DNA from: Thuidium tamariscinum
Lineage: Eukaryota > Streptophyta > Bryopsida > Hypnales > Thuidiaceae
Assembly: GCA_947034885.2 (NCBI GenBank)
Contig: OX344757.2
Location: 21,818,001 to 21,882,000, forward strand
DNA length: 64,000 bases
Direction of reading: 5' to 3'
A program made the position numbers and the translations under genes. Below the pieces are notes generated by a model that saw only the letters and a list, made by a program, of their open reading frames with translations, had not been told where the DNA came from and searched no databases. Below are positions 11,923 to 38,598 of the stretch, piece by piece (the first letter of the stretch is position 1; every line of letters starts with the position of its first letter).

Positions 11923-11930
11923 GGGAACAT

Positions 11931-11985
11931 GCAGGGTTGCTAGCAGGCGAGCCTGGGAGTGTGAGCCTGTGAGCCTATGAGCGGG
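11931..11985 (+). repeat. Left terminal inverted repeat of the large transposon
   Basis: It contains GTTGCTAGC, CGAGC, then GTGAGC twice and ATGAGCG. The inverse of 38536-38598 has ATGCTAGC, CGAGC, then GTGAGC units in the same order. The match is imperfect but colinear over about 50 bp. Confidence 0.8.
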
Positions 11986-12016
11986 AAAAAAAAATTCATA
12001 AAAAATGATGAAGGGT

Positions 12017-12046
12017 CTATGACCGTGGATGGTCCTATGACCGTGG
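12017..12046 (+). repeat. Subterminal repeats CTATGACCGTGG, left side
   Basis: Two copies of (C)CTATGACCGTGG lie at 12017-12028 and 12034-12046, about 90 bp inside the left end. Their inverse counterparts lie at 38396-38425 near the right end. Paired subterminal repeats of this kind are often transposase binding sites. Confidence 0.65.
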
Positions 12047-12126
12047 TTGCCAAAATATACATTGTCTGTCACTTATTTGTTCATTGTTTAAGAATTTGTT
12101 TTAGAACAATTTAAATTCATTGTAAG

Positions 12127-12147
12127 AGTTTAGGGTTTAGGGTTTCA
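12127..12147 (+). repeat. Interstitial telomere-type TTTAGGG units, left
   Basis: Two to three plant telomere-type units (TTTAGGGTTTAGGGTTT) lie about 200 bp inside the left transposon end. The right subterminal region has ACCCTAAACCCTAAACCCTAA in inverted orientation at 38117-38137. There is no long array, so this is not a chromosome end. Confidence 0.6.
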
Positions 12148-12371
12148 TAGGAATAGCTTTGTCCAATAAGACAACTAATTGATTACGCTTTATATGATTT
12201 TCTACAAGACAAAGATTAAATATTATTTAAATAAATATAAATGAAACAATAAACATTTTTATGCAAGAAAATGAAATACATCAAAGAAGTAGCCATAAAA
12301 CATACAAATCCAATCATAATAAAAATCAATACACAATAGTTTGATCCAAGAGATTTATCAATCTTCTGAAT

Positions 12372-15300
12372 CTAAATCGCTGTAGACTCTGTTGCAGAAT
12401 CTAAACCTGTAGATGACTCTGAGGACTCTCTACCCTCAGATGCAGACACATCTACAAACTGCAAGACATTTAGAGCATAAGTATCTTTACGGCGTTTTGG
12501 TTTGAAACAACCAAACTCCGCAAAGGCACTTGCCAATTGCTCAGCATAGATAGGGAGCTCAAAAGTCTTCTCCGGGCTGATGAGAAGACTTTGTTTTGGA
12601 ATGATAACAGAAGTTGGCATCAATCCATGACCTCTGCCAAAAAATAAGATATGGTATTAGGCTTCTTGAACACAAAAGAGAATCAAACATGCCAAAAAAG
12701 AATTTAAATATTGCCAACTTACCTACTAGATTTTCCCTTGCGAACAAATTTGCGAGGCACCACAGGCATGTCCTCCAAATCCTGTGAAAGCTCCACCACC
12801 GGCGTTGACTGCACTGTTTCTACTACACGCTCGAGTGACTTCTTCATCGGCTTGAGGATAGCATCATAAATGTCTTTGTTGCCCTCTAAAGCCACAATGT
12901 GGCGTCCAGTGGCACAACAAGCTGTAATGCATGCACCTATTGCCAATGAAATAAAATGTATTAGTGCTTTGATTGAATTTGTGAAATACAATTATAGTGT
13001 AAAAGATTTGAATTAAACACTGACCTATAGATGCCGTGCAATCCAATATCAAATCTCCTTCAATGCTTGTAGCTTCGAGGAGGATGGTAAAGAACCTTGG
13101 ATCTTTTTCGCGCCCACCCCGCCAAGGCCATTCCCCATTCATGGCCATGTCATATGGATGGGTGTAGTTCATGAGCATATCATCCTCTGCAACATCAACA
13201 CCTGCCTTTGCCATAATATTGGTTTTCTTGAAGGAAAATTTGGATGGTCCCTTGGAGCCAAGCTTCTTCACAAGCAGGGTGACTCCAAACTTCTGTGTCT
13301 GCACATTTAGGCCAAATGTACATTAGAACGCTTAAAATGTAGGGAAATATAAAATTTTGATGAAAGACACTAAAAGTCAATTGAAATTACCGTCTTGGTC
13401 TTCTCTGTAGCCGAGGTAAGGTGCATGCGGTTCATCCCCATCCACTCCTTCTTCTGCACCAAGTCATACGCCTCACAAACTCCAGCAATGTCTTGCCTGG
13501 ACTTCATACTGTATGAGTGAAACACTATGATGCATCCATTGTCTTGTAGATGCTCCATGGCAAAGCTACAAGCTGATTGTAGTGCTTCCGCCTCTACATC
13601 TGCGTTCCACTCTGGCACATCGTTTGGTGAAGAAGAAAGACCTGGCACGGGTAAGTTCTCAGGGCAATCAATGAAAATGACGTCCACCCCTACTCGCACG
13701 TTTGGCACACCTTTAAACATGCGAGTCTTCCCATTTGACATCTGCAAATATGTAATACAACTCAGAATTAGTTAAAAAATAAAACAAGAATCAAATGACT
13801 TGAAATAAAACAAGGAAGTTCAAAAATGACAATAAACATTGGTACCTTCTCTAGAAATTGTACCACGTCCTTGTATAAAGTCGGTTTGTCTTCCTCCATG
13901 TCGTCTGCAAGGTCTTGAATGGAGAAGTTGAGGATTAAATCCTCACTCTTTATCGCATCATCTTCAGTGAGGACCATACCTTGTGTAACATGTGTGATGA
14001 CTTCTTCGGTGAGTTGGGAGAGAGTGACCTTTCTCATCACTTTGGATTCCATCTGTGAACCTTGATCCACTGTAGAAGATGGCACCCCTTGTGCCACTGC
14101 TTCGTCCTTCTTCTTACCTTTGCCCTTGCCCTTTTCTTCCTTGTCCTTGTCTTCCTTGTCCTTCTGTGCTTTCTTTGCTGCTCGCTCAGCCTCCTTTTTC
14201 TCCTTGTTTTCAAGGTGAAGTTGGGCTCAAGCTTCTTTTTTTCTGTCAACTGCATCCCTCCTTGCAATGGCCCTCCTTCTTGCATTCTGATCAAGGCCAA
14301 CAAACTCATCGATGTCACAGTCCATGACCCCTTTTCCATCCAAAGACCTCCTCAGCTCAATCTCTGAAGGCGGAGTGAACTCGAGTGTACAATCCAGGTA
14401 CCACCCTCCTGAAGTAAGATGAGCCGTAGTATAAGTGCGAAGTTGGTGCGCACTAAACATGCAAGCTAAAGAACCACGATCAACAAATGATGCCAGAAAC
14501 GGAAGGAGGTCTAAGCATGTGATTGCCCCTTTCCCTTCAAGCTCAAATTTAAAATACCTGCAATACAAGGATAAACATTTTTAAGGGACAATTTCGATCA
14601 TGCCAATATAACTAGGAGAATAATATTAAATTTGAAAAGTCCATTAATGGATAGGTCAATAATTTTGAGAATAATAGAAGCAAATAAAAGTTAAAAAAGT
14701 AAAATACACTTTCTTGAAGAAAGTACATTATAATTCATAACTGAAGTCCTCATCTTCTAGAATTCAATGATATCCGACTTAAAATGTAGACATGTTTGCA
14801 TGTCAATTTAGCCTTAACAAATTAACCTCATATAACAAAATAATAATATAAACACATGAAATGAATCACTTCAATTTCTAAGTCATGAAAGACACATAAC
14901 TGAATACTATCCATAATTTGTATGAAAAAATAGAATAGTACATACCGGAAAAGAACTCTACGAAGTGCAGCAGCTGAACCTTCGTGCGCCATGAAGGAAT
15001 CACCCTTCTTAAAGTAATTTTGGCCCTTGAAATAATTCATAAAACCATGATCCCATATAATGACCCTCCACCCCTCAATGTACTCTACCAAGGACTGTGG
15101 TTGTGTTGGGAGCTTGTAATTGATCATGATGTTATCTTGCTTGACAACCGAATCAAAATATTCCAAAGCCGCATCTTCAATCTAAAAAACAAATTGCACA
15201 CCAAAATGCACACTTCAATATTTCATTAAGTGAATATAAAGGCTAAAATGCCATATTCAATACAAATAATGAAAAGCTACAAATCAATCTACACAATCAA

Positions 15301-16881
15301 TTCATCACTTACCCCTGCATACCAAACGCATTTGGCAAGAAATTGAGGAAGGAGAAGCTCGGAAACAGGTTTCGGTGGGAACTTCCGTGCTTCACGAGAT
15401 GGAATAGAAGAATTCCACCAGCTCAAGATTTTGATCTTGTGCGCTGAAGTCATACTACACGTGGCCACAAGCTGTAGTTTCTCCAATGTCATCTTTGGCA
15501 CTTCATTATTGCTCCAATGCCTCTCCACCTATATCATGAATCTTCATATTTTTAGTTCCAAATCCATTTATTGAAAGACCAACACATAATAATGCACCAC
15601 ATGTATACATTACTCACCTCCTCAAGAAAGCCAGGTCCATTGTAAGGGTTAGCCACTACTAGCAGTTTGCCCATCTTCCCCATTAAAACCTTGATTTTCT
15701 CCTTAGCTCCTTCCCGCATGGCCTGGGCAGCCAATGCTGCCTTCCTATCGCATTCTGCTGTAACATCATTATACTTTCTCACTGCAGAATCTGTAGCTTG
15801 AGAAATCTCTTGCTGCATAATAAACCGATTTTGGAAATTAGTAAAGCCCAGAGTACAAAAGTTTGTCAAATTGAACAATATATAATTTCTATAGGAAAAA
15901 AATTCTTACCCTGAAAATGAATGATGTGAAAACCTCCACAGGTATGCTATACCATTTCCGAGAAACCTTGTTTTCAAGACACTTCTTCTTCTCTGAGGGC
16001 CTTAGAAGATCTGCAAACCTTTCAATCGGTAGAAGTCCATACTTCTGCACTTGGTACAAAGTGTGTACCAGGTTAGTCTTCACATGAGAGTCCTCCACCG
16101 ATCTGTAGGTCATCAATGACAATGAAATCAGTGTAAGTCCTTCAATTTTCTACTAAAGAAACATAAAAGAGAACTAAAAACAACTAAAATCTTGAAAACA
16201 TTTGAATTGGAGAACTTACTTGTTGATATCATGCATCACTTGCATAACAAGCTCTGTTCACCCTTTAGTATCCAATAGAATGCTATCCACAAGATAGTGC
16301 CACTTCGGAATCAAAGTATAACACCTGTCTATGAGATTCATCCAAGCAATTCTTCTGTGATTTCCATCGCAAATGAAGAACTTCAAGTTCTTCAGGGACT
16401 TGAGTTCAGGCCTGGATTCTAGGTGCCGCTCAAATACCTCATTCTTTTCTCTCCAAATGGGGTCCCATTCACTCATTTCAGCCTCTGTGAACTCGGAGCT
16501 ATATCCTTCCTCATTCATGATAGACACGTAGAAAGCAGCCGCTCCATCTCGATATCCACCAGCGAATTCTTGCTCCAACTTGACAATATCAAAAGCTAGG
16601 GTAGGCCTTACCATGGGCATGGCTACTAGCCTGCAAAGAGGAATGCGAAGCCGATAAAGCTCTTCGGGCTTCATGCAAAGTTGGGAGAGAATGTCCACTA
16701 AATCGCCCTTTTGAATACGCCTCAAGTCGTCCTCCAACATTTTCTTCTCCTCCTCATCGTAAATCATATCAATTTGCATGTCCTCCTCTCCTCCTTCAAT
16801 ATGGGGTTGTCTTGTCTCATCTGTTTTTGGTGTCTCAAAGATGGTTTCCACTTGAGTTTCCTTGACAGGTGAGACATCCAT
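12372..16881 (-). CDS. ParB-like domain plus permuted DNA amino-methyltransferase, 10 exons, with an in-frame stop
   Basis: Exons on the minus strand: 16220-16881 (or 16262-16881), 15910-16102, 15618-15812, 15313-15528, 14946-15181, 13846-14557, 13391-13741, 13025-13298, 12723-12936, 12372-12633. All have GT-AG borders and matching phases, for about 1100 codons. The first exon has an acidic N-terminus, then a ParB/sulfiredoxin-like stretch ending FICDGNHRRIAWMNLI. A coiled, Lys/Glu-rich linker follows. The C-terminal third keeps the order of the N6_N4_Mtase family: a DPPY-like position (VDVIFIDCPEN), then EKDPRFFTILLEAT, then the cofactor loop GDLILDCTASIGACIT and GRHIVALEGNKDIY. A TGA at 14227-14229 interrupts exon 13846-14557, and a second (16258-16260) lies in the longer first-exon model but is spliced out in the shorter one. 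It may therefore be a decayed copy. Bacterial and phage proteins join ParB and methylase domains in the same way. Confidence 0.75.
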
Positions 16882-17116
16882 CTGGAAGTACAAGTTCAAA
16901 AATATTATTGATTGAGAGCAATGTCATAGAGAAGAAATATTAATCGTGTAAGCATGAAACAAAATTTGCAATTGAAATTGCTTTACTAATATATAGAATT
17001 CTGTCATTTGTAAAAATGCTGAAGTGAGGTTGAGACAAAATGAGACTTTACAAGGTCTTTTTTATGACTGGCACAAAGAAATATCGCTAGGAAAATTGAA
17101 CCTATAGAAACCAAAA

Positions 17117-18535
17117 CTACCCTATGATGTCAACATCATCATCCTCTGAGTCAGAACTGAGAATGATAACCTTGTAAGTATAAAATTTACCAATCCGGTT
17201 TGATTCATAGAATTCCTCAAATGGAGGACTAGAATTAGCGTTGGAGAGCTCTATAGCGGAGGAATATTTCGTCTCAGAGCTCTCTAAAGAGAACCAAGGA
17301 CCAGGGCCACGGTTCCAACTCAATCTATCACCCTCAAAATCATTGGCTGCTTGCTCGGCAGCATCCATTATATCTGCGAAACTCACCAAAGTTTGTTCTT
17401 CATCACTAGAATCACTTGAGAGTGGTACGCCAGGTTGTGGCCACTTCTTTGGCTCGGACGGTCCGCCAATGTCAAGAGATGGAAAAGATTTCTCTAGGGG
17501 AGGTTGCTTCTCTGTAGATGAAGTCTTCAAACGTTTACCTCTTCGTCGACCTCTCTGAAAAAAATGAAGAAATAAAGAGAAATCAATATTTAAAACAATT
17601 TAGTAACAAATGAAATAAGGTATTGGTGAAGAATGAAAAATGTAATAACCATTTTAATAAGGTTATCTACCTATATATGATCAATAATATCATACCAATT
17701 CATCCAATCCATATCTTTAAGAACCTTTATGAAATCTTTCATTGATGTCTAGGACTTAATGACTTCAAGAATTTTAACTCAATGACATATTTTGTCCCAC
17801 TTTTATTGTATTTCCAACAATCGTGCATAATACTTTAAAAATCACTTATAAAGAAGAAAATAGTTTGACCCTTTGAATGAATGAAAATGTAGGGTACCAT
17901 GAGGTATCATGGAAATGACCGTCGGATCCGACGGTCCTTTCCGTGGTACATCATGGTACCCTTGATTTTAACACCTTGAGAAGATTGATTATTTTTATTG
18001 ATAAAAGTTTTCTTGTGAAAATTTTAGTCACCATCTTCACACACCAGAATAATTTTGTGGTCTTCTAATAATATTTTCAAATATAAGAAACTATCTCACA
18101 CTCATGGAAAATGTACAAGATTGAAGGAGATGAGTAATAAGAAATCAAGACAATAAATCAATTCCTCAGTCAAATTTCATGAATTGTGACACGGAGAATA
18201 CTTCAAGGAATATAAGTTCAAAATAATCACAAGATTATTCAAGGAGGACAAACCTGGTCAGAGTTACTCAGTAGAACATCGGATGAGGTTGGACCAGCTG
18301 GAGGTACCTGATGCAAAAACAGAAGATAACAAAACTTCAGAAATAAAATTAACGGTCACCTGAAGGTAACCAAATTAGGGGTACCCTGACATGCTTAGGA
18401 TTATAGCGTCGGATCCGACGGTATTTTGGACGGTATGTCCTGGTACTCCAATTTTCATCAATGAAATCAAAATTTCAAATCAAAGACCTATTTCCTACGG
18501 TACAGTCCGAATACAAAACTGGAATTCCTTTACCT
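17117..18535 (-). CDS. Exons of an acidic nuclear-type protein with NLS and SUMO-interaction-like motif (partial)
   Basis: Minus-strand exons fit at about 18565-18536 (ending LALDSGEQ), 18254-18307 (VPPAGPTSSDVLLSNSDQ) and 17117-17554, with phase 0 at each join and GT-AG borders. The last exon starts with a basic run, RGRRRGKRLK, which looks like a nuclear localisation signal, and ends with VIILSSDSEDDDVDIIG and a stop. The hydrophobic-acidic tail fits the SUMO-interacting motif pattern. Either this is a separate small gene, or it is the 5' part of the methyltransferase gene joined through a donor that could not be placed. The hAT insertion at 18566 truncates the upstream side. The function is unknown. 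Confidence 0.5.
17891..17962. repeat. Foldback 1 with core GACCGTCGGATCCGACGGTC
   Basis: This is a nearly perfect 72 bp inverted repeat centred on the GGATCC at 17924-17929. Each 36 bp arm starts AGGGTACCATGA, with about five mismatches between arms. It lies in the intron between exons 17117-17554 and 18254-18307. Confidence 0.85.
18375..18452. repeat. Foldback 2 with core GTCGGATCCGAC
   Basis: The imperfect inverted repeat is centred on GGATCC 18411-18416. The outer parts (GGGGTACC on the left, GGTACTCC on the right, plus GACAT and ATGTC) pair. It lies in the intron upstream of exon 18254-18307. Confidence 0.72.
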
Positions 18536-18557
18536 GCTCACCACTATCAAGTGCTAA

Positions 18558-18565
18558 AGCTAAAC
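18558..18565. repeat. Target-site duplication of the hAT-like element (left)
   Basis: AGCTAAAC here matches TGCTAAAC at 29150-29157 in seven of eight positions. An 8 bp duplication is the hAT standard. Confidence 0.65.
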
Positions 18566-18581
18566 CAGGGTTGTTCTGCCG

Positions 18582-18673
18582 GACATTGCGACATCGCGAC
18601 ATTGCGACATCGCGACATTGCGACATCGCGACATTGCGACATCGCGACATTGCGACATCGCGACATCGCGACG
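18582..18673. repeat. Tandem array of GCGACATT/GCGACATC
   Basis: Two 8 bp forms alternate, giving a 16 bp unit GCGACATTGCGACATC repeated about five times just inside the left end of the hAT-like element. The right end has a related GCGACATCGGACGTCC at about 29090. It may be a subterminal binding array. Confidence 0.85.
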
Positions 18674-21600
18674 TCACGAAACGTCCAGTAGACCTTCCGC
18701 GACGTCCATAAAAGTCAAATTTACCTTTGACTTTTTTTAAATTACCACATGGAAAATAATGCCACCTGGATGCCATGTGGCATCTACGTGTTACATTTTA
18801 GGGCGACTACGGGTAGGGCGACCTCGGGTAAGGGTGACCTCTTTCTTCTTTTTTTTTTTTTTTTTTTTTTTTAGTTAACATATGGAGAAATTCCATTGCA
18901 AAAAAAAGGGGGCAACCTCTTCTATTGCAAATTACATTTGTTACACTTCTCTAAAAATACAAAAAAGTGGATGTAACAATAAAATCTTCTACTTCACTTG
19001 TCTAAAATCATGTGGTAAAATTTTCATGAGGTATGACCATATAAAGGCAATTGTATGAAAGACTTGTACTATTTTTCATCACATGTCTCATGTTGATCTA
19101 TTTTTTGACCATAACTTTTGTATTTTTGCTCCAAATGACTCAAGACTTCTAGAAAAGGTACTCATAACTATCATATAGCTTACATGAATTTTTGATAATT
19201 TTCAAAAATATTTAATATAAAAATAATACTAGTGATTGAATGTCACATATGACAATTTGGAAGTTCTTAGTACTATGGAATACCGTTTTTTTAATGATTT
19301 TGAGATGAAATTTGGATGAGATGGTCTTCTAATAGACTTCTAGTTTTACACACAAGGATTCTTAAAAATAGTTAATTTTATGTCATGTGGAGATCTACAA
19401 AGAGAGCTTCATTTTGCTTGTATTTTGAAACATATAAAATATTATTTTGGTAGATTTTTAACTGAATGACCATCTCCATAAAATTGTTGCAAATGGACAC
19501 TTTTTATTTTTTGTATTTACTTATTCTTACTATTTTTCCCTAATTAAAACATGAAGGTATGTATTTTCTTAAGGTTTGGCACTTTTCTAGTTCTCCTACT
19601 TAGAAAATTTTCCTATACAATTCCTTTTGTAGGTACCTTTGTCTTAAAGGTGTATGTATAAGACATATTTTTTTAATTTAAAAATTATTTTTCTAATTAA
19701 ATAGTACTCCAAAAAAAGTCAGAAGTACTATTGCAAAACGCAACAAATAGTACAAGTCTTTCATGCAATCACCCACAAATTAGAAGATATTTGCATTCAA
19801 AGTTGGAAAAATAAAATTTTGAATGTTGGCCTACAATTTCAATGACTTTGACCACTATTTGTGGAAAATTTATGCACTATAGACTTTGTTTTTTATGTTG
19901 AATTACTCCTAAGAGCCCAAGGGGTTAGGACAAAATACAAATGTGATAAAATACAATTTCTATAATTTTTTTGAAGTTAGCATCAAAGAAGATTATGTGA
20001 AGCACAAAAAATAGAAATTATCTATATAGATACAGTTATAAAGTTGTTTTTAGATTATCTTCAAATGAATTTTGAAGATATAACTTCAAAAAAATCACCA
20101 AAAATACAATTTTCATCTTAAATAGTACTTGAAGTTTTATTTGAATTAGTCAAAACTATGATTTCTATTGATTTGTGAAAAAATGAAAAAGATCTAGTAA
20201 TGAGAGCATCAACACTTTCTCCAAATATTAAGTTTTTCAACACTATGCAATTATAAACACTTTATGATATTTTTCTAATAATTTCTTTTTGGCCATATTG
20301 ATCTTAATTAGTTTTGAATGTAAATGTTGAAAGACAATCTATTTTTTTAAAGTAAAGCAAAAAGAAATTATGCCCAAAAATTATACCCAAAGTAAGGCAA
20401 CAACCAAAAATGGTTGCTTGAGTACTTAGGGGTTAACAAATTGTTAAGTAGAAATAGGTTGAACAAGAAAATAAATTATTAATAGTTCTAAGATGTAATT
20501 GAAACATGTAAATTCTAATTGTGTGATTCTTCTAGGAAGAAAATTTAACCTTGACAAACAATTTTTTAGAAAATTTGTGAAAATTGCATTCAAAATGAAA
20601 TCTAATATGTTACTTTTTCAAGAAGTTTCTATAATTGCTCAATAAACAAGATTGTCTATAATTTTTTATGTTTAGTCCAAATACAATTAATCATAGCTTT
20701 AGACAAGTGGATTTTTGATCCCTTACAAGTTATATTTTAATTTCATTTTTGCAAATTTTTTCACATAATAATTTAGAAATGAACAAATGAGAGTAAATTT
20801 TATGTCAAAAATTACAAAAATTTGCACAAGAAAATTCAAATTTGAGATTCTATACATAGACCTCAACACCTTATCACCTTGCATATAGGATATTCAATAT
20901 TCTTTTTTAAATGGCACATCATAAAAGAACGAGTTAATTTATTTACATTACTTTTTGAAATTTAGAGGCATGCAATGTGGCTTAAGAATTTATGCTAGTA
21001 TAATAATATCATGTCTTATTACAAAACAATGGATGGAGGAAACTACTTTCAAGGGCTTCATCAACCATGGTTTATCCATAACCAAGTCCACCAACTATCT
21101 ACTTGCCAATTGCTTCTTTAGATCAATACACTCAACTTCTTCATTAATTGATGCATTTTCAGAAACTTCACTATTGTATTTTTTCCATATTATTAATTCA
21201 TTTTCATTAATTCGGCAAATTTTCTAATAAAATACAACATAGATTCCATTGTATATTTATACTTTTCTTGCATTCTTACTATACTCTTCTTTAAATGTTG
21301 TCACCTATTCACAGAGAATAATTCTAGAGTCATCTACCAATAGTTCTTCAACTTTCTTTCCATAATAAGATATTTGGAATGAATCTTGGGGGATAAAAAA
21401 ATAATATCAAGGTACATAAAGTCAACCCACATAGTTCCCTAATGCATCTTTATTTTAGGGCTTCTTTTAGTCATTCTTAAATGACATTAAAAGTTTTAAC
21501 TAGACAACCAGATTGTTTATTTTTAATGCATAATTACAAGAAAGAGCTTGCAAACCATAATAAAGATTTTAGCACTATATAGAGGGACAATTTGAAGAAC

Positions 21601-22540
21601 AAGGGCAATTTTAGAACACTTGAGTTCTTAATCCCTAAAGGACCAAGGCCATTTTTCTACAAAAAAAAATACTTAAACTCTCATTTTTATAGCAAGGAGA
21701 AGAAAAATTTGAAATTTTTTTTTTCGGCATCTAACCTTAGATTCTTATACCTAACTAGTACAAAAATTCGTGGATATCCTTTTTAATAATTGTAAATATT
21801 GCATTTAGATATGAATTCAATAAATTATTTTTCAAGACAATGATTCAATTGTCCAAGAAACAAGATTGTTCATAACTTTCTCAAAATAAATCCAAATGTA
21901 TCAAAACTTTTCATGTAGGCAAAAATATAATCTATGAGAAAAAAATAAAAAATAAAACTTTGATTTTAAAAATTGTTGTGGGCTACTCCTCTCTTTTGTT
22001 TTGAGTTTATTTAGGCATAAATTTTTATCTTGGATACTAATTGAAAAAATATAAATTCATATGAAGCTAATCAATTTTTCTATCTTCAAAAAAAAATCCA
22101 ATAATCAAGACAAAAATTAAGACAATAGGTACCTATATAAAATCTCATTTGTTCCCTAAAGGGACAATGGTTCTTCAAGCATTACAAACCCTAGAAATCA
22201 AGAACTCCTAAAATACATTCCTAGAGAAAAATATAAAGGCATTAAGCTCTCCAAACTCAATCGAAGAAACAAAGAGGAGGTAAGCAATAAATATTTTTCA
22301 ATAATTTAGAAAATAACTATTTCTAGGGTCTCCAGAGTCTGTGATGATATGAGAACCCTCGGACAAAAAATAATAATAAATAATTCTTCAAGTAGAATTG
22401 AAAAAAAGTTAAGAAATTCAAAACCTCGTTTTAATGGCCAAAAAATTTCGAAATAAAAGAAACTCATCCAAAAGCAAGGTAATAGCTCACACACCAACTA
22501 CAATCGCCTTAGACAAGCATTCTCCTATAAAATTATGTTT
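18674..22540. other. AT-rich interior of the hAT-like element, left part
   Basis: After GTCGCCC-type motifs in inverse orientation (18800-18842) and a long T run (about 18847-18872), the DNA is AT-rich and non-coding. Fragments of TTAACCCC-type ends occur, with a right end near 20437 and a left-type end TTAATCCCTAAAGGACC at 21628. No gene was seen. Confidence 0.5.
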
Positions 22541-22559
22541 TAAACCCGCGTTCCCATAC

Positions 22560-23870
22560 AAGTGATCGCCCTAGACCCGAGTACTCCTTCAAAGAGGTCC
22601 TCAAGCCCCAAAATGGCCCCAAAATTGCAAAAAATTGAAATTTGGGGGGCAAACAACTCCCACCTCCTTAAGAGGTCGCCCTAACAGCGCGTTCTCCTTA
22701 AGAGGTCGCCCTACACCTGCGTTCTCCTACAAGAGGTCGCCCTAGACCCACATTCTCCTTCAAAGAGGTCCCCAAGCCCCAAAATGGCCCCAAAATTGCA
22801 AAAAATTGAAAATTTGGGGGCAAACAACTTCCACCTCCTTAAGAGGGCGCCCTAAGAGCGTGTTCTCCTACCTTCGGTCGCCCCACACCCGCGGACGCCC
22901 ACAAGAGGTCGCCCCAAGACCCGAAGTCGCCCCAAAATGGCCCAAAATGGCCCCAAAATGCCTTTTTTTGAACTTGGACAAGGGAATGGCTCCCACCTCC
23001 ACCCGCGGTCGCCCTAACAGCGCGTTCTCCTACCTTCGGTCGCCCCACACCCGCGGACGCCCACAAGAGGTCGCCCCAAGACCCGAAGTCGCCCCAAAAT
23101 GGCCCAAAATGGCCCCAAAATGCCTTTTTTTGAACTTGGACAAGGGAATGGCTCCCACCTCCACCCGCGGCCGCCCTAACAGCGCGTTCTCCTACCTTCG
23201 GTCGCCCCACACCCGCGGTCGCCCACAAGAGGTCGCCCCAAGACCCGAAGTCGCCCCAAAATGGCCCAAAATGGCCCAAAAATGCCTTTTTTTGAACTTG
23301 GACAAGGGAATGGCTCCCACCTCCACCCGCGGTCGCCCTAACATCGCGTTCTCCTACCTTCGGTCGCCCCACACCCGCGGTCGCCCACAAGAGGTCACCC
23401 CTAGACCCGAAGTAGCCCCACACGAGGTTACCCTAGAACGGCATTCTCCTTCAAAGAGGTCCGCAAGACCCAAAATGGCCCCAAATTGCAAAAAATTGAA
23501 ATTTGGGCGGCAAACAACTCCTACCTCCTTATGAGGTCGCCTTAACAGCGCGTTTCCCATGCAAGTGATCGCCCTAGACCCGCATTCTCCTTCAAAGAGG
23601 TCGCTAAGACTGAAAATGGCCCCAAAATTGCAAAAAATTGAAATTTTGGGGGTAAACAACTCCCACCTCCTTAAGAAGTCGCCCTAACAGTGCATTCTCC
23701 TTAAGAGGTCGCACGACACCTGCGTTTTCCTACAAGAGGTCGCCCTAGATCCACATTCTCCTTCAAAGAGGTCCCCAAGACCCAAAATACCCAAAAAATT
23801 GCAAAAAATTGAAAATTTGGGGACAACGGCTCTATCTTTCCTATGCGGTGACTCTAAACCAGTATTCTTC
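22560..23870. repeat. GTCGCCC-rich tandem array with a 162 bp core period
   Basis: Nearly identical 162 bp units run from about 22850 to 23410; the phrase CCTTCGGTCGCCCCACACC starts at 22871, 23033, 23195 and 23357. They are flanked on both sides by a second repeat type containing GCAAAAAATTGAAA and TTCAAAGAGGTC. Because 162 is a multiple of three, long frames stay open on both strands (plus 22806-23534, minus 22839-23423). These look like by-products of the period rather than genes. Confidence 0.85.
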
Positions 23871-24249
23871 TATAAGAGGTTGTAGAGAAGTAATTGTCTA
23901 TGAGACATAGAGTATGGCATTTTTTTTAAATTGGAGGGAAGAGTAGTAAAGTTGATTATGATGAGTTACACTTGCATCAATTTTTGAACATATTAATGTA
24001 CATTTTATATTTGAAGAGCTAAGACAATGTTTATGTTTGAGATTAGACTTCAATGGATAGATGTCTTATATCATTTGCTAAATATTAAAGCTCTTTTCAA
24101 AATTTGTTTATCTTGAATTATCTATAGTAAAGCTTTAATTTTTGTATCTCTATTTTAATCTATGAATTTTTTCTACTTTATAATTGAAGTGATAAGGTCA
24201 AAAATTTCAATGAGCATTCAACTTTTGTATAGAGGGGAATTTATTATTG

Positions 24250-25880
24250 TATGGATGTTTTTGTAAATAAAATTGTAATTTTTTGTATATTGATTTATTA
24301 AATGGGGAACAATTTACAATTTTACATAGATCTTTATTTATTATTTTGTATTTTGAAGTTCAATTCATAAATAAGTCATTATTAAAATGACTCATTGACA
24401 TTTACATAAATTAAAAGGAGAAGTTATCATTTAAATTTCATCCTTCTAATTCTAAAATCGTAGATTGAGGTAATAAAAAATACTTGATTAGAATGATGCT
24501 TAAAGAATGGAGAATTCTAATGGATATATTCTTATATACTTGAGTCTCCATCTATTATATTGTATATTAGAATTTATTTGATATATGTTTTTGGTAGGAT
24601 AATTCTTTGACATTTTTGTAAATCAAAAAGAAAATGTTTTCATTTAAATATCTTTCCACTAATTTTTAGAATTGACATGAAGGTGGTGACCTAATAAAAT
24701 ATGAGTACGGTGATACTTTGGAAATAGAAAAACTCAAATGGGCAAGTTGTTATTGAAATCTCTATCCACTATTTTGAGTTCTAAAGTTTGCTTGATAAAT
24801 AATTTACCAAAAATATGAGCCTTCAAATAAAAGTTGCATAAATCTAAAAGAGAAGTTTTATTTTTTAATTTGTTCCTTCTAATTTTAAAGATGAGAGTAA
24901 GGTCATATTTAAATAAGACATAGGTATTATGATGCTTGAAAATTGAAAAAAGTTGAATAGGCAAATTGTTAATAAAGTCTCTATCCACTATTTTGAGTTC
25001 TAAAATCTATTTGATAAAATAATTCACCATGAGGATGAGCCTTCAAAATAAAGTTGTATATCAAAAAGAAAACTTATTTCACTTATACCTCTTCCTTCTA
25101 ATTTTAAAGATGAAATCAAAGTGGTGCCTAAATAAGACATGACTATGATGATGGTTCAAAAATAGGAAAAATTGAAATAGGCAAATTGTTATTAAAGTCT
25201 CCATCTACTATTTTGAATTCTAAAATTTGCTTGATAAATAATTTGCCATTAGGATGAGCCTTCAAATAACATTTGTATAAATCAAAAGAAGAAGTTTTTA
25301 TTTAAACCTCTTCTTTTTTTCTTTTTTCTTTATTGTTGAAGGTGAAAATTGATAAATAGTACATAAATATAATGATGCTTGGAAAATAGAGAATTTCAAA
25401 TGGAGAAGATCGTTTACAAATATCCATACATTATTTTTTATTCTAAAATTCACTTAATGAATATTACACCATAATGATGGCTTTAAGATTTGATTCGATC
25501 AAAAGGGAAAGTTTTCATTTAAATCTCTTCCCTTTAATTTTTAAATTTTGGTAAAGGTAATGAAGAATACATGAATATATTGATGCTTGGAAAATTAAAA
25601 AATTCAAACAAAGAAATTCTTAATTATACAAAATTCAAATCATTATTTTGTATCCTAAAATCCACTTTATAAATGATACACCATTAAAATGACTATGAAT
25701 TTTATATAAAATTAGAAGATAAGTTCTAAGTTAAAATAATCTCTTCCCTCTAGTCTTAAAATTTTTGGTGAAGGTGGTAAATTATACATGAATATAATGA
25801 TGCTTGAAAAATAGAGAAATTAAAATGATGAAGTTCTTACACAAATATCCATTCATTTTTTTGTATATTGAAATCTAATT
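24250..25880. repeat. Degenerate satellite array, about 210-222 bp period, roughly seven units
   Basis: A marker phrase like GATGCTTGAAAAATAGA recurs near 24493, 24706, 24927, 25148, 25370, 25580 and 25797. Each is followed at a constant distance by phrases like ATTTTGTATTCTAAAAT, TCAAAAGAGAAG and CTCTTCC. A further unit lies near 26900-27120. It is AT-rich and has no coding potential. Confidence 0.75.
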
Positions 25881-26203
25881 ATTCAATAATACAACATCTT
25901 GAAGGGCACTCCCAATTCTTTAACTATAATGTGCAATCAAATGAAGTGTGGTTTTAATTCTCTTGGCCTAAATTTTAGACAATTTTTAGATGTAAACTAG
26001 CATTACTAAAATGGGATATTACTCATTATAAATAATGAAGGATATGAAATAATACACAACTTTACCTTCTTCTTCTTTTTCTAAAGTTGGGTTGCTTAAA
26101 AGAATCTCCAAAAATCTAAACTATTATGTAGTAAACAAAGTTTGAAATTAAGAATCCTATGAACTAAATTTTATGAGAGCATGAGCTCTACATATAAATG
26201 AGA

Positions 26204-26274
26204 GTGACAACTAATGCATGACAACTAATGGTGACAACTAATGCATGACAACTAATGGGTGACAACTAATGGTT
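26204..26274. repeat. Minisatellite GACAACTAATG
   Basis: Five copies of TGACAACTAATG, separated by short spacers such as CA, G or GG, lie in a row. Confidence 0.8.
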
Positions 26275-27129
26275 GTGCTCTTATAAGTATTCACACTTTG
26301 AATGTGTTTGAATGCAATTGTTGAATGGAAGTATTGCTTATCTAGTCTTTTTTAAATGTATCACATGTTTAGTCAAAGTTTTAATAAGAAATAAGGCCTT
26401 ATTTCTTATATTGAGACAAAGTATAGTCTCAATTTTATCTTAGAGTCGAAGATAAATGGTCATAACTTTATAATTGTGAGTCTATTTGATAATTTGAGAC
26501 TTTAATACAATAATACATGTAAAAACCTTTAATTGTCCAAAGGTTGCAATCTCATCTTATCGTCAATTCAATGATAAATGAATAAAAAAAATTTAGGGTA
26601 AAGTCTCAAAATATATAAATTGTCTCATTTTAATGAATAAGGCCTTAAATCCTCTTCTCTTTGTGTTTGCAAGAAAAATGCAACTCTTTTCTATGTATAA
26701 TGAACATAGGGTATAATTAATTAGCACCCCAAAAAATTCCAAAATAAAGATAGGGTGATTGAAATGACTTGACTTTAGAAATTTACGTAAAGATGTCCCT
26801 ATTTTAATTCATCAAATGTACCTACATAGCCCTCATCTTTTAGGGGCTTGAATGCACATGATGTCCTAACATATTACATAGTACAGCCCTTCAGTACAAC
26901 ATTAGGATGATTCTTTGACTTTTACGTAACTCACAAAGAGAAGTTTTAATTCAAATCTATTTCTTCTAATTTTTAAACTTTAGGTGAAGATGCTAACTTG
27001 CTAAGAAATATAAGAATATGATGATCCTTGAAGATTAGAAAAAATCAAATGGGGATGATTTAAAAAAAAATCACAATCCATAATTTTATATTTCAAAATC
27101 TTCTTGATAAGTAATACATGAGTAGATTG

Positions 27130-28238
27130 TAATCTCCTAAAGTTTCATTGTCTCTACAAGGGGTCAACATGGATTTTGGACAAGTTCCTATAAGGTCAAT
27201 TTTTTATGGAACTTTTTGAAACACTTTTGTAAGATAGAAAATCTTATTAGCTTTTTAGAAATGTAGTTTTATTTGAATTAGTGCCTAAAGGCAAGAATCA
27301 TATCAAAATAAGTTTAGATCTAAATTATGTAGGTAAAAACAAATTCACAAAAGTTTTAAAATGTTTTTTTCTTATAGATTGTAATTTTGTCTACTTAGAA
27401 CTTTGATTCATTTTATTTAGATTGATGATGTGAAGATTATGAAGCATTTTATTTTGCGGTCAATAATTAAAAGATTTTGAAATTGTTTGACATAGGATTC
27501 ATTTCTTACTTCAATTTTAATTCTTTTCTAAACAAATAGTTTTGTAGTATTAACTTTGATTATTAGAACAATCTCACTATTAGAACTAGTATTTCTAATT
27601 CCACCTTAGAGCTATTCATGATTTATTTTTTCCTCTATGATGTACCTTCTACTAACAATTTAAAATAAAATGAAATTTACATTATTTTTTTTATAGTTAT
27701 TTTTCCTATATTTTCAATTTAGTTTTGAAGAATAATTTTTTTAAAGTCAAGATCTAAATTGAATTTTTTTTTAAGTTAAGAAATCAAATCTCTTAAGCTA
27801 AAGTAGACTAGTCTATTTTCATTTGAAACTCCATTCTACCAAGTAGACCAGTTTGTTTTTGTCACTCTAGTTTTGGCCCCATTTCTACCTAAAAAAACCC
27901 CAATTCCCTTCACTCTATGACAAAATCAAGGATTTTATGACAAATTGGAGTAATGTGTTTCTATTTAAATAGAGAACATCTAGTTGTTGATTAGGTGGTT
28001 ATAGGATGTTTATAAGTTGTTTATGACCTTAGCCTAGAGGTGGTTTTGTAATTTAAAATTGTCTACTTCAAAAATTTACAGAAATTACAGTTTTGATTGA
28101 AAAATTATGATTCCATTTGGATTTGATTGAAAAAACATGTGCACACTTTAAAGAAATCTGTGCCCCTATTAGAATTGGCTCCAATATAGCTAGATTTTAA
28201 ATGGGCATGTCTACCTTAATTTGCCATTGTCCCCTCCC
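27130..28238. other. AT-rich interior with diverged repeat fragment
   Basis: Phrases such as CATTTTATTTAGATTGATGATG and AAGATTATGAAGCATTTT resemble the body of the TTAACCCC repeats, so a diverged copy probably lies here. Its ends are not clear. No gene was seen. Confidence 0.4.
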
Positions 28239-28880
28239 AAATGATTTCTTTACTTTGAAGTTTGAATGCAATTATCTTGCAATTTATGTGGTGAAAATTT
28301 TTGAAATTTTTTTCACATATTCTCATACTATAATGTTAGAAGATCCTACCATTACATATGCAAAAAATTACCATTTCTATTTTTTTTTGTTTTTTGTACT
28401 AAAAATGGCAGTTTTGAGTGTTTTTTTGAAAATTCCAACAAAGAGGTCGCCCACCCGCGGTCGCCCCTTGACAAGAGGTCGCCCCTACACCCAAGGTCGC
28501 CCTCCCGCAGTCGCCCCATGACAAGAGGTCTCCCACTTGAGGTTGCCAAAGTCCCCCCAAAAATGATTTCCTTACTTTGAAGTTTGAATGCAATTATCTT
28601 GCAATTTATGTGGTGAAAATTTTTGAATTTTTTTTCACATATTCTCATACTATAATGTTAGAAGATCCTACCATTACATATGCAAAAAATTACCATTTCT
28701 ATTTTTTTTGTTTTTTCCACTAAAAATGGCAGTTTTGGGTGTTTTTTTGAAAATTCCAACAAAGAGGTCGCCCACCCGCGGTCGCCCCTATACTTGAGGT
28801 CGCCCTCCCGCAGTCACCCCTACACCCGAGGTCGCCCTCCCGCAGTCACCCCTTGATAAGAGGTCGCCCACCCGAGGTCG
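28239..28880. repeat. 322 bp direct duplication next to the right end of the hAT-like element
   Basis: The stretch from AAATGATTTCTTTACTTTGAAG (28239) is repeated with few changes from 28561. Each copy ends in a run of GTCGCCC/CCGCGG motifs. These motifs continue to about 28970, close to the right end of the hAT-like element. Confidence 0.85.
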
Positions 28881-29326
28881 CCCCTTGATAAGAGGTCGCC
28901 CTCAAAACCACATACGCGGTCGCCCTATCTTGATGCGTAGTCGCCCCACCCGTAGTCGCCCTGCCTCGCTTTCCACGTCAGCGTGGACAGCCTGCCACGT
29001 AGGCAAAAACTTCTTACTTCGCGGTAAAAAAATTTACCCTTGCGCGACGGGACGGGACGGGGTAGCGACAGGTTGTCTTATACGACACGCGACATCGGAC
29101 GTCCAACACGACGCCGAAACCCAAAAATATGTCTAACAGAACAACCCTGTGCTAAACTAGCTCTTCACACAGATTGAAGGTACTGCCAAATTGAGTGTGA
29201 TCATTTCAGTGGAGATAAGAATCAAGGTAAACCACCATCAAGAAGGTTTGCAATTGAATATGAGAATGGAATCATGAATCGGAAAAAAAAACAAGACGAA
29301 GGTGGAGTCTCGATGAAACAATTTCT

Positions 29327-30119: not shown

Positions 30120-30129
30120 AAACTAACAC

Positions 30130-33420: not shown

Positions 33421-36400
33421 ATGGCTTCCATACGTGTTGATGGTCACGAGGTTCCCTTAGTCTTCCCACTTGATGAAAAAGGGTATGCTACTGTTTTTAG
33501 CCATTTCCTTCATGTGAGGTTCAAGTTCGTTGAGTCATCTGTCTATATTGAGGAAGAGAGAAAGTCTGAGGCAGGTGAACTGCTACAATCTATTCCTCTT
33601 GTAAAGTCACTATATGAAGGAAGACATCGCTGGTCTTTGGGTTCTGGAAATTATAGAGTGTATGGTCTCCCTCTACCGATGCATCCTTTGTCAACTGAAA
33701 TAGGAAGTCGCCAGTCGGCCAACTCAACAGTGGACATGCCCTTTGTGGCTAAGGCAACTATACCAAGTCCTAGTACTCGCAGTCATCTCCCAATGTTTGC
33801 TACGAATGAAAATGATGTTCTTGTGAAGGTAGAGAAGTTGGATACTATTGTAGATTTATCTAGCGATTCGGAAGGAGAGTTTCTACCCTCGTCTCTTAAC
33901 CCTAAACCCTCCATGATTATAACTGATTCAGGTGAAAAGGCCACCCCTCACTTTGACAGGAAAATGGAAGGTAGTTTAGGGTCTCAGTCTTTGCTTTCTA
34001 GTCCTTTGCCACAATCAAATAGTGTGAGGTCTGTCAGTATAATGGATTGTCTACATAGACTTTCTACTCTTCATCATTCTAGGAGTGAATTGTCTACAGT
34101 AGACCTGAATATCATGAAACATCATCGAGTAGTGTTTCTACCACCTGCATACAATGGGGACTCCATTTTTGAGTTACCACCTTATCGATCTTCATCTTCT
34201 TCATCAGCTGCCAAGAACTTGGAGGGAATGGATAAGCGCTATGACGGACATCCTTGGTGCAAGCTGGTAACCACAAACATCCACAACGCAGACAATCTTA
34301 AGTTTCGTAAGTCATACTACGCTGGTCATCTTGTTTGTGAGAATACTGAGTGTGAGTACGTGAGAAGGGCTTCTAGAAAGAATGAAATAGAGTGGATAGG
34401 GTCTACTATTTTTCCTTTTGTAGTAGGAGAAGGTCCTCCTAAAGATTGTAGGCTTATTTGCAAAGTCTGCAAAAATATACCTACTTGCATTGGCATGTGT
34501 GACGCTAGGATATACTATTACTACAGTGATAATCCCGAAATGACTAGAGCCGCTATTCACTTTGGAAGTCATACTCACCCGGTAGCTAAAGGCATGTATA
34601 GAGACTCCGCCAAGGAGATTAGCAAACTCATTGAAGAACAAGTGGCCAAAACTCCAACGGCTACAAACTTTGCTATTGCGTTGTCTGCTAGCAAAGACTT
34701 CTTGACAAATCATTTATTTCACTACGGAACCGGAGAGAAGGAGTTGCTTAAAGGCGAAGAGATGGAAGAGGTCATGGACCGCTTCCAAGTTTTAAGCAGT
34801 CCTAGTATACGGAATGTCATCTCCTCTTTCCGCACAAACAATCGAGGAGGTATTATCGACAACATCATGACTATGAAGAAAGAATCCAAATTTGAATTTA
34901 TCCACGACAGCATTTTCCTAGGCCAAGGCAAGGAGAAGGTGTACATATTCAAAATGCTTACCGAAGGACCTGGAAGTGGAGTCGACCTCGTCAAGCGCAT
35001 GCAACCCCAAGGTGATCTTCACAATGCATGGATGATGTTTGACCACGTGAAGCGCATGAAGGACTGGACCACGATGGCTTGCCACGTGTATGATGCACAG
35101 TACAAGAAAGTGATGACCATTGCAGTATGTGACATGCAGTCAGAAGATACAAAAGTTCAAGTACAATTCTGGAGGAGTTTGAATGCTGTCATGACTAATC
35201 ATGGTGTGCCTGACACAAACTTTAAGGGCTTCATGGCAGACAGTGCAATGGCTAATTGGAATGCAGTACGTATTGTCTTTGGCAGTGGTTCTCCGAATGA
35301 GGTCATGCAAAATCGAGAGAGGACATGCTTGTTGCATTGGACTTCTTCTCTTATCAAGCACACTCAGAAACACATCAAGCAAGCATTCCAACACCAACAC
35401 AATATGCTGTACAAGCAATACAAAGAATCGAAGACCATGGATGAAGCAGAGACACGGTATCTTGCAATCCGGTCATGGTGGTTGTCATCTAGAGCTGCAA
35501 GCGAAGAGTCTTTTCATCACTTAGAGCATTGGTTGGCATTCTGGCATTTTCGGTATTTACAATGGGGAGGCTTTATGACAATGGTACGCAAAATAATGAT
35601 TTCTTTGTAGTTTCTTCTTATATTTGCTATAAAATGTGGAAGGTATGTAATTCAACTTACAAATAGAAGGACTAAGTCTTTGTATTCCAATATTTGTTGT
35701 GTGAGTATAGAGCACTAGAAATTTCCTATGAAATTCTTCTTGGTCTCTGAAGTATGTGAAATGGGATTGCTTTGAGGCCACACATGTGGTTCCGTTGGAT
35801 TCGACGGAATCATATTGGTTGCCTCAAAATAATAACATTTTGGATATTTATCACTTTTAAATAATTTTGTACATCTTCTTGTTAGAATTTTCAATCTTCA
35901 TTTATCTTGCAAATTGTCCTACAGTAATATTTAGATTATTTGGAGGAGAAGGATGCAACCTTCAATTTTTATTTTGATGAATATTGTGTCTCTAACTCAT
36001 ATCACTAAATTTTCAGGGATTGAGTTTGGAAGAGATGACAGATCTACCTTTCTGTAATTTATCTGAAACGATTCATAACAAGTGGCTGCAAATGTCCGGA
36101 AAACGCGCAAACAATTTGTTTGACGCTACTTGTGATGATAGTATTCACGCTTGGATGCAAATGACGAACTACCGTGCATATCTCAAAGGACACACATCTG
36201 GTTCAGGCCCATCAAAGGGGGAATTGAAGTTGAGAGCTGCAAGACGTAGCAGATGCCCTAAGAAAATAGCGGAAGCGTTGAACACATTGCCAGAAGCTCA
36301 TGGTGTGGGAACTCGAGTACCACATTTAGAAGGAGAAGAAATTTTTGGAAGCACTAAGCGAAAGTTGGATGTGCCTATTGGTGATGATGGAGATTCGCAT

Positions 36401-37405
36401 AGACCAGACAAAATGAACTTCTCTCAACCCCGTGTCCGGACAAGGTCAACTAAGATAGTAGAAGAGCCATTGGAGGTCAATGCATCACAAAGTGAGGTAA
36501 ATCCCTTTCAATTTGTGACTGTAGCATTTGAAAGTGACTGTGACACATCAAAGTGGCACATTGCTAGGATCAATCACAAATCAAATGCTAGATGTTCGGC
36601 TCAGCAACGAACATCCAACATCAAATGTACTTGTAGGATTTCAAAGGGGAAAAAGGGAACCCCTGCTCCCACGTATCATGGTAGAAAAGAAGAGTATGGC
36701 ACTAAACGGGAGGTGGTGGTAGACTTCTGGTTTTGTTGGGATGATATTGAACGATGCGTCAAAGGTACCAAGCGGAAATGGGTCATTGATTGGCCAGAGG
36801 TTCCAGAGGTTTGGCCTATTTTGAGTGGAACAAACCTCAATTGAGAAGAGACTTTGTTGTTGTAGCATGCAGGCTTCCATCTCCAAGAGAAGACGATATT
36901 GTCACCACGTAAGCTCTTTACCATGTCTAAGATTTTCACGCCTTTCCTTCTTGACCAACCATCTCCACCTAATGCGGATGTACATCCAACAGTGAGAAAC
37001 AACCGAACTATTAGGAGACTTGCAAATGCCCCAACTGTAGAGCAACGAAACAAATGGGAGAGTGCTGGGAATATTAGAGGACAAATAGTAGAAGTGATCC
37101 TTCTCCCTTTTCCAGGACTTGGTGCAATAGTAGTTTTGGAAACTGGGATGGAATCTACAAAAAATGTTTATCGAGTGACAATGGATATGTTCCCTACATG
37201 TACATGCCCAGACTTTGTGAACATGGTTGTATCTGCTATTGGAGGGCGAGCACAATACATGAACTGCAAGCACTTGTATTATTTGTACAGGTATTTCTGC
37301 AAGATGGATATTCATGATGATAAATTCATTCATGCACCTAGTTATAGCTTCAATGAGTTGAAGGTACTCCTAGTCCGTGCAGGAATCATTATAGTCTCGA
37401 AATAG
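33421..37405 (+). CDS. Mutator-like transposase with GCM-like zinc-binding and SWIM domains
   Basis: Exons fit at 33421-35583, 36017-36808 and 36866-37405 (all phase 0), for 1164 residues. The last intron, 57 bp, is the weakest join. The chosen start is the first ATG of the frame, MASIRVDGHEVPL. In order: a SUMO-interaction-like IVDLSSDSEGEF near residue 142; a Cys/His cluster at about 275-395 (LVCENTECEY, CRLICKVCKNIPTCIGMC, HFGSHTHPV) in the WRKY-GCM zinc-binding style; a DDE-type core with HVYDAQYKKVMTIAVCD and GFMADSAMANWNAVRIVFG, then CLLHW as in MULE transposases; and a SWIM zinc finger (TCTCPDF ... NCKHLYYLY) at about 1095-1122. It would cut and move the element that surrounds it. The frame is unbroken, so it may be functional. 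Confidence 0.82.
35771..35828. repeat. Foldback 6 with core CCGTTGGATTCGACGG, in a transposase intron
   Basis: This 58 bp inverted repeat is bounded by TTTGAGGC and GCCTCAAA, with TTCCGT/ACGGAA next to the centre. The core differs by two bases from GTCGGATCCGAC. It lies in the transposase intron 35584-36016. Confidence 0.78.
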
Positions 37406-38116
37406 GCATAGCTTCTTATTTTCAATGTATCTCATCCATATTGTATCATTGGACATATTCTGTGCATGAAATCATCTGAAGATGATGGAATAGAAGGAAA
37501 TATATTTATTCCAAAATACAGGACCTTTAACCCTCAAAAGTAAGGGAAATGTGGGATAATTTTTTCAAATGCATATGTACAAGTTCAAATTGTATATCTC
37601 ATCATGATAATGCACATGTGAATATGAAACACATTTTTTTTCTTGAATCATTTCCTAAACCCTTGTATTCCTAAACCGAAAAGACAAAATTCCTTTTCTC
37701 TTGTCTTTTCTCCCCCTCGTCCATCATTATTTGGTTTTAATTTTAGAGATGCATTTGTTAAGTATTTTCTTTTCAATTTTCTTCAATTGTTTCCATTTAT
37801 CCTCCAATTTCAAAAAAGATCTCCCCATTTTTTCCATTTTGAACCCATTTCTATACCTTTAACTTTTTTTCCCCTTTACTTCCGTAAGGTTTCCTTTGAA
37901 TTCCCAATTGTTTTTTATTTCTTCATTTTTCTTTCAGTTCCTATTTTTTTTCCATTCCTCTCATTCTTTGACGTTCTCACTTTCATCACTTCTCTTGTTA
38001 TTTCTTTATAGGATATATTTTGTATCTTTTATAATAAAGTTCTTTGTGTCTTTTTCAACTAATTCGAGCAACTACTTACATGTGCTATGTAATGACAACC
38101 TCAAGCCACATTCATA
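37406..38116. other. 3' region of the transposase gene, T/C-rich
   Basis: A likely 3' UTR is followed by a T- and C-rich stretch (37640-38050) with no credible protein. A CCTAAACCC unit near 37655 hints at telomere-type motifs. Confidence 0.4.
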
Positions 38117-38137
38117 CCCTAAACCCTAAACCCTAAG
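38117..38137 (-). repeat. Interstitial telomere-type units, right
   Basis: ACCCTAAACCCTAAACCCTAA is the inverse of the TTTAGGG units at 12127-12147. Another CCTAAACCCTAAAC lies at about 38346. Confidence 0.6.
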
Positions 38138-38395
38138 TAAATTTCTTTACAAAGAATTGTTAAATGTCTACTTCAATGGTTCACGTAGCACAACATCCTA
38201 ATCTTGAAAATTGTTTACTAAACCCTTACAAGTACTCTTGTACCAGCACATGTCCCAAATCCCTATTTGTATAGGATAGTTATAATTATACTTCTGTAAA
38301 TCAAGTTTTTTATTTGATACTTCTGCAAAACTTTGGAAGTCTACACCTAAACCCTAAACAATCTATAGCTACTCAATATAATTTTTCATGACAAT

Positions 38396-38425
38396 CCACG
38401 GTTATAGGGGGGCACGGTAATAGGT
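38396..38425 (-). repeat. Subterminal repeats CCTATNACCGTG, right side
   Basis: On the minus strand this stretch reads CCTATTACCGTG and CCTATAACCGTGG, matching the two copies at 12017-12046. Confidence 0.62.
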
Positions 38426-38535
38426 CACAAAACTTCATAGAAATAGTAAATTCAGAAATATTTTAGAATAATTTTGGCCGAATTTTTTTTTCCAACAACT
38501 TCTTCAACATTAAAGTCTTGTTCAGGCTCACCGCT

Positions 38536-38598
38536 CATAAGATTCACGCTCACAGCTCACAAGCTCACCGCTCCACGCTCGAACGCTAGCATCGTTGA
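38536..38598 (-). repeat. Right terminal inverted repeat of the large transposon
   Basis: Read on the minus strand from 38598: ATGCTAGC, CGAGC, then several GTGAGC units and ATGAGCGG, in the same order as the left end. Confidence 0.8.

Follow-up and report, generated by a model that had tools for sequence, protein, structure and literature searches.

A MULE-like DNA transposon family with a methyltransferase-like core gene in the moss Thuidium tamariscinum

Introduction

Is a methyltransferase-like gene that lies between the ends of a plant DNA transposon occasional cargo or part of the element proper, and what could its product do there? The question is raised by a stretch of 64,000 nucleotides of the moss Thuidium tamariscinum (NCBI GenBank assembly GCA_947034885.2, contig OX344757.2, positions 21,818,001 to 21,882,000; the whole stretch is called the window in what follows). 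A preliminary description, made from the letters of the window, had recognized at 11931..38598 a large DNA transposon with a MULE-type transposase which carries as cargo a gene for a ParB plus DNA amino-methyltransferase protein. To our knowledge, the ways in which plant transposons escape silencing are understood in detail for few systems, VANDAL/VANC among them. Copies of the element, its ends and its genes were followed across the genome (363 Mb, 19 contigs), and the methyltransferase-like gene is found to be a core gene of the element.

Linkage of the two genes

Searches with the element ends considered the best 40 of 305 left-end candidates and the best 40 of 358 right-end candidates. A scored right end lies within 60 kb of 29 of the 40 left ends, with a spacing of 15–20 kb in 24 of them. 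A methyltransferase match lies inside every one of these 29 paired-end intervals and is joined by the transposase in 26, so that further copies with the same ends and both genes, for which the preliminary description had proposed to look, do exist; the three intervals without a transposase measure 7.0, 19.3, and 57.8 kb.

The genes were also searched separately, taking the best 150 of 620 candidates for exon 7 of the methyltransferase-like gene and the best 92 of 963 for the transposase. A divergently oriented methyltransferase match occurs within 60 kb of 88 of the best 92 transposase matches, 77 of them at 8.7–14.2 kb, and within 30 kb of 85, compared with a mean of 1.0 and a maximum of 5 in 200 random placements; a methyltransferase neighbor on the same strand accompanies one of the best 92. 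In the reverse direction, a partner was found for 27 of the top 30 and for at least 87 of the best 150 methyltransferase matches, and among those ranked 31–57 there are 13 of 27 without a partner among the best 92 transposase matches. Since the gene is present in every paired-end interval, and is paired divergently with 85 of the best 92 transposase matches where chance gives about one, it is a core gene of the element and not the cargo it had first been taken for.

Ten copies of the family were fetched (c1 to c10), seven of which measure 15.3–16.2 kb and the remaining three 10.9, 16.9, and 19.7 kb. The element is a member of a multi-copy family made up mostly of units of 15–17 kb. One contig of 17.5 Mb (about 5% of the genome) carries 46 of the best 150 methyltransferase matches, that is, 2.63 matches per Mb as compared with 0.11–0.52 on ten others among the same 150; this contig is perhaps a non-recombining or sex chromosome.

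Borders and mobility of the window copy

The two ends of the window copy (CAGGGTTGCTAGC... on the left, ...GCTAGCATCGTTG on the right) face each other and each is flanked by AGGGAACATG, at 11922–11931 on the left (from the reading of the flank and from empty sites) and at 38598–38607 on the right (from the reading of the flank), which places the element at 11932–38597 on the forward strand (26,666 bp). The left terminal inverted repeat, beginning with CAGGGTTGCTAGCAGGCGAGC, and short GTGAGC-type subterminal repeats occupy 11932–11990 (forward strand); the right one occupies 38520–38597 (reverse strand), with repeats of the same type close to the end in inverted orientation. The single unit that had been recognized from its ends, flanking duplication and subterminal repeats is thus retained with slightly shifted borders and a duplication of 10 bp; the 8-bp duplication read by eye at the earlier borders is rejected.

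Direct alignment of the two ends gives a score of 52, compared with a maximum of 45 and a mean of 26 in 200 shuffles, which is modest evidence by itself; it is the recurrence of the ends and of their paired spacing across the genome that is decisive for the unit. Both flanks could be read in 11 copies, and all 11 are flanked by duplications of 9–10 bp that differ from copy to copy; these are the window copy, copy B of a subfamily and nine of the ten that were fetched from the family (copy c10 is cut at its right end and hence falls outside this count). Among more distant subfamilies, the ends of which were examined in the few fetched copies, the first 13 bases of the left end are identical in copies B, C, and D; within the fetched stretches no right end was found for C and D and no left end for F.

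The window insertion landed in a dispersed repeat about 88 bp long. Empty sites, another check proposed at the outset, were sought with a query of 123 bases in which both flanks were joined with a single copy of the duplication: 38 of the best 40 matches (of 126 candidates) cross the junction at 75–88% identity; the remaining two correspond to the halves of the window's site itself. These sites are relatives of the dispersed repeat and not the allelic site. The window unit is real and mobile, a DNA transposon, and we are nearly certain of its anatomy as described here.

The nested insertion

The window copy exceeds the length of its family because a hAT-like element of 10.6 kb is inserted within it (18566–29149, forward strand). 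This insertion is bounded by a perfect 13-bp terminal inverted repeat (CAGGGTTGTTCTG) and a duplication of about 8 bp with one mismatch and a short scar (AGCTAAAC/TGCTAAAC), and family copy c2 has the corresponding empty site. Duplications of 8 bp and CAGGG-type ends are hallmarks of hAT elements. The nested element is rich in GTCGCCC and GACATCGC repeats; in the list of open reading frames, those of 120 or more amino acids across 18566–29149 are repeat-derived only and include no transposase frame, no dedicated transposase search having been made. On the grounds of the ends of the insertion, its duplication and the empty state in c2, the whole 26.7 kb is rejected as one original unit: the span is that of one large transposon with a second one nested in it. 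This insertion, the two stops in each gene of the window copy and the third conserved exon (both below) were absent from the preliminary description.

About 6 kb to the left of the element (3284–6097, reverse strand), two frames resemble by eye plant dihydroorotate dehydrogenase.

The methyltransferase-like gene

The methyltransferase-like gene spans 12372–16881 on the reverse strand and has ten exons (exons 1–5: 16220–16881, 15910–16102, 15618–15812, 15313–15528, and 14946–15181; exons 6–10: 13846–14557, 13391–13741, 13025–13298, 12723–12936, and 12372–12633). The transposase lies divergently on the opposite strand, and in this respect the earlier account of a multi-exon gene opposite a transposase was correct. 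Two in-frame stops interrupt the methyltransferase-like gene and two the transposase, hence the window copy is dead. All ten exon lengths are unchanged in seven of the ten other copies (c5, c6, and c9 differ), and an intact frame of 1104 amino acids is found in three (c1, c3, and c7), of which c3 is the sole one that also keeps all splice sites. Subfamilies maintain the exon structure at 65–83% identity over the methyltransferase segment; subfamily copy F carries stops and exon 1 is missing from its fetched stretch. The ratio of nonsynonymous to synonymous substitution rates (dN/dS) is 0.24 over 8 of the 11 copies, with values of 0.16–0.64 among the 28 pairs, which are not independent; c5, c6, and c9 were left out for their length changes.

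The C-terminal domain, encoded by exons 7–9 (12723–13741, reverse strand), looks like a beta-class N6/N4 amino-methyltransferase on the basis of weak but consistent profile matches. The PF01555 profile matches five of five members with a best E of 2.4e-4, which falls short of the curated threshold; given the full 1104-aa protein by itself, it yields an E of 4.9, and an exon-by-exon scan of the genome with this profile returned no match among 44 scored candidates. Phage methyltransferase families are matched by all five members (best E 3.8e-6). Among PDB sequences at E up to 10 there are five distinct matches, namely DpnA twice (0.0094 and 0.011), CcrM (0.43) and two unrelated proteins (0.36 and 0.51); in the DpnA and CcrM alignments DCPENL is placed opposite DPPYN[IL], and the DPF...G motif is matched by DCTASTGA, both stretches being weak when taken singly. 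Motif IV precedes motif I in the domain, the order that characterizes the beta class. A domain-profile search yielded 21 outside homologs, 13 of them spanning motif IV and one (P0082) with a precomputed PF01555 domain; with the full spliced protein as query, no homologs appeared among 8000 scored candidates.

The predicted active site departs from that of known enzymes, with motif IV as DCPENL for DPPYNL and motif I as DCTAS[TI]GA. The 22 rows of exon 7 that were read represent 16 distinct copies, which have DCPE (13) or DCLE (3). The catalytic tetrapeptide ([DNS]PP[YFW]) occurs as DPPY in none of these 16 copies and in none of the 13 outside homologs that cover the motif, where DCPENL is found in eight and DCPKNL, DCLENL, DFPKNL, DFLENL, and DFPENL in one each. 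Since every row read has DCPENL, or a sequence close to it, in the place of DPPYNL, ordinary N6/N4 base methylation by this protein appears doubtful.

Exon 1 (16220–16881, reverse strand) contains the DGNHRR motif, which is ParB/sulfiredoxin-like by motif only; DGN-RR is invariant in the four subfamily rows. A scan of the whole genome with ParB profiles, exon by exon, detected none, and an NCBIfam match to TIGR00373, seen in one of four (E 0.0012), was taken as due to chance. The ParB half of the initial annotation is thus a motif call only, based on DGNHRR and with no profile behind it; the amino-methyltransferase half stands as a methyltransferase-like domain.

The transposase and the MULE label

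Transposase exon 1 (33421–35583, forward strand) encodes zinc-binding-type cysteines, the candidate first two aspartates of a DDE core and a C-x-x-H motif. Exon 2 (36017–37405, forward strand) encodes the candidate catalytic glutamate, in NLSETIHNKW, and a SWIM-like C-x-C...C-x-H, and bears the two stops of the window copy. In copy c1 the two exons form an intact protein of 1183 amino acids. Among 61 outside homologs, most of which stop short of the last residue, the candidate DDE residues are found as HVYD in 55, FM[AC]D in 57, and NL[SA]E in 3.

The MULE label, already used in the preliminary description, draws here on hallmarks that are indeed present, terminal inverted repeats and 9–10 bp duplications, in a superfamily where target-site duplications range from about 8 to 11 bp, as well as on DDE, C-x-x-H, and SWIM-type motifs visible by eye. 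Transposase_mut and SWIM scores are weak, the Pfam MULE profile (PF10551) does not match the intact 1183-aa protein, for which SWIM is the only match (E 0.6), and of its 33 matches in the genome (all 70 candidates scored) none lies at these loci. A Pfam scan of 20 of the 61 homologs detected no transposase domain, giving only SWIM (E 0.17) and zf-Tnp_2 (E 0.76) in one member each, and when profiles were compared with seven frames of classic MULEs the probability came out near 0, though the expected stretch was aligned. MULE-like appears the fairest name, given the duplication length and the motif layout.

No match was obtained when viral contigs were searched with the methyltransferase and transposase profiles. 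The transposase profile identified, among genome contigs, one of 4.1 kb filed as a cyanobacterial metagenome-assembled genome, with frames that resemble exons 1 and 2; it is probably plant contamination.

A third conserved exon and the central spacer

A third conserved gene is represented by its last exon (17117–17554, reverse strand), which is acidic and ends in VIILSSDSEDDDVDIIG followed by the stop. Besides the window copy, nine of the ten others from the family have it (c6 is the exception), as do subfamily copies B, C, and D (not F), and the position of its stop is constant within one residue across copies. Its dN/dS is 0.13 (10 copies), and that of the transposase is 0.20 for exon 1 (11 copies) and 0.20 for exon 2 (10 copies), the pairs again being non-independent; judged by these ratios, the transposase, the methyltransferase-like gene and the third exon all show purifying selection. 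An acidic VIILSSDSEDDD stretch lies in the third exon, and a similar TIVDLSSDSE stretch occurs in transposase exon 1 (around 33840–33880), with a loosely similar pattern in 35 of the 61 homologs (no control). We take both stretches, as well as the VIILSSDSEDDDVDIIG end of the third gene, to resemble SUMO-interacting motifs.

Divergence was profiled for 7 of the 11 copies in 250-base windows along copy c8. It is 0.02–0.07 at the left end and the methyltransferase gene, 0.08–0.14 in the third exon, and 0.02–0.10 across the transposase and onward to the right end; in a central spacer (about 5.75–9.25 kb from the left end of c8) it rises to 0.17–0.39, far above genes and ends. The spacers fall into types: c1 and c2, c4 and c8, and c9 and c10 are 90–99% alike, most other pairs are 75–80% alike over 60–94% of the length, and small copy-specific tandem repeats are carried by them.

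Proposed role and alternatives

What could a conserved methyltransferase-like protein with a rewritten active site do for a transposon? We propose that it would be an element-encoded accessory factor. The methyltransferase fold together with the N-terminal DGNHRR domain would recognize the element's own DNA, at the ends or in the divergent promoter region, and the protein would then either counter silencing imposed by the host, in the way that VANC acts for the VANDAL elements of Arabidopsis, or aid transposition. In our judgment the balance is even on whether the protein is indeed an accessory factor of this kind, with the DNA of its own element as its target. Ordinary N6/N4 methylation would be a less likely activity, because the active site is rewritten; of the two functions first suggested for the gene, self-marking by methylation is accordingly weakened by the loss of the catalytic tetrapeptide in every copy read, and countering silencing is kept as an inference. 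A bolder and distinctly tentative proposal is that this transposon lineage, which would be a widespread one in plants, turned a bacterial-type methyltransferase into a self-addressed regulator, in which the DCPENL site would serve a different chemistry or a reader function on the element's own DNA and so control silencing or transposition.

Several points weigh against the accessory-factor proposal. For the N-terminal domain, searches of Pfam, PHROGs, NCBIfam, and the sequences of the PDB gave no match to ParB, and the conserved if unusual motif IV could be catalytic after all. No long tandem repeat was seen to recur among the spacers of the copies, in contrast to VANC targets; the alignment of the spacer is uncertain, with pairs sharing 60–100% of it, and its divergence may have causes unrelated to silencing. 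In addition, ends were read directly in the fetched copies alone, and checks for ends covered a minority of the best 150 methyltransferase matches.

Among the alternatives, the one that survives best gives the DGNHRR domain the leading part: it would be a ParB/sulfiredoxin-type nuclease or NTPase, the protein would take part in excision or integration as a DNA-processing cofactor, and the methyltransferase domain would do no more than bind DNA. The invariance of DGN-RR fits this proposal, as does the description of a ParB-adenine methylase fusion from prokaryotes that has nicking activity (PMC5512222); with neither the four collections named above nor the genome exon scan yielding a ParB match, we consider it unlikely. 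Slightly less probable still is a protein that retains DNA amino-methyltransferase activity through an unusual DCPE site and would methylate the element's own DNA for self-marking, protection, or relief from silencing. The fold and motif order are those of beta-class enzymes, most rows retain the acidic residue that follows motif I (ALEGNKD) and the gene is under apparent purifying selection, but DPPY is missing, its aromatic residue included, from 16 of 16 distinct copies and 13 of 13 covering homologs, the first glycine of motif I is lost, and a DIRS1 methylase is likewise termed catalytically inactive (PMC3537659). That the gene is a functionless passenger captured from a host or bacterium, as Pack-MULEs capture gene fragments (PMC6446971), is rejected as highly improbable given its presence in 29 of 29 paired-end intervals, its co-occurrence with 88 of the best 92 transposase matches, the exon structure kept in subfamilies at 65–83% identity and a dN/dS of 0.24.

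Relation to known systems

The literature searched showed no gene of this kind in a DNA transposon of plants, which is no proof of novelty as most subscription papers lay outside its scope; in the main text of a survey of MULE diversity, the words "methyltransferase" and "ParB" do not occur (PMC6446971). The accessory-factor proposal has its closest model in the VANDAL/Hiun MULEs, in which vanB and vanC lie beside the transposase. An element-encoded protein of these transposons binds their own noncoding regions and induces loss of silent marks, and the VANC target regions diverge rapidly, according to two studies (PMC10398659, PMC5735166). The moss element resembles them in its 9–10 bp duplications, its terminal inverted repeats, an accessory gene that accompanies the transposase and a divergent noncoding region, the spacer divergence being reminiscent of that of VANC targets; it differs in that its transposase has no Pfam MULE match and its accessory gene has a methyltransferase fold. 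A plant DNA-transposon family with a methyltransferase-fold core gene, the active site of which is altered much alike in all copies and relatives read, would offer a second, independent accessory system.

Other known systems share single features with the element. Prokaryotic ParB-adenine methylase fusions such as Bce_0392 (PMC5512222) have what may be the same pairing of domains; the moss gene differs in being intron-rich and eukaryotic, with a rewritten active site and a ParB part recognized by motif only. Certain Mariner elements of giant viruses that encode an endonuclease and a methyltransferase are also DNA transposons with a methyltransferase beside the transposase, but their transposase is of the Mariner type, their methyltransferase domains are cytosine-C5 or Methyltransf_26, and their hosts are viral genomes (PMC3627910). 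Finally, DIRS1-class retroposons have kept an N6-adenine methylase domain described as catalytically inactive (PMC3537659). These are retroelements with a tyrosine recombinase and no DDE transposase, and the likeness is one of composition; if the parallel holds, it would make repurposed methylases a recurrent tool of transposons.

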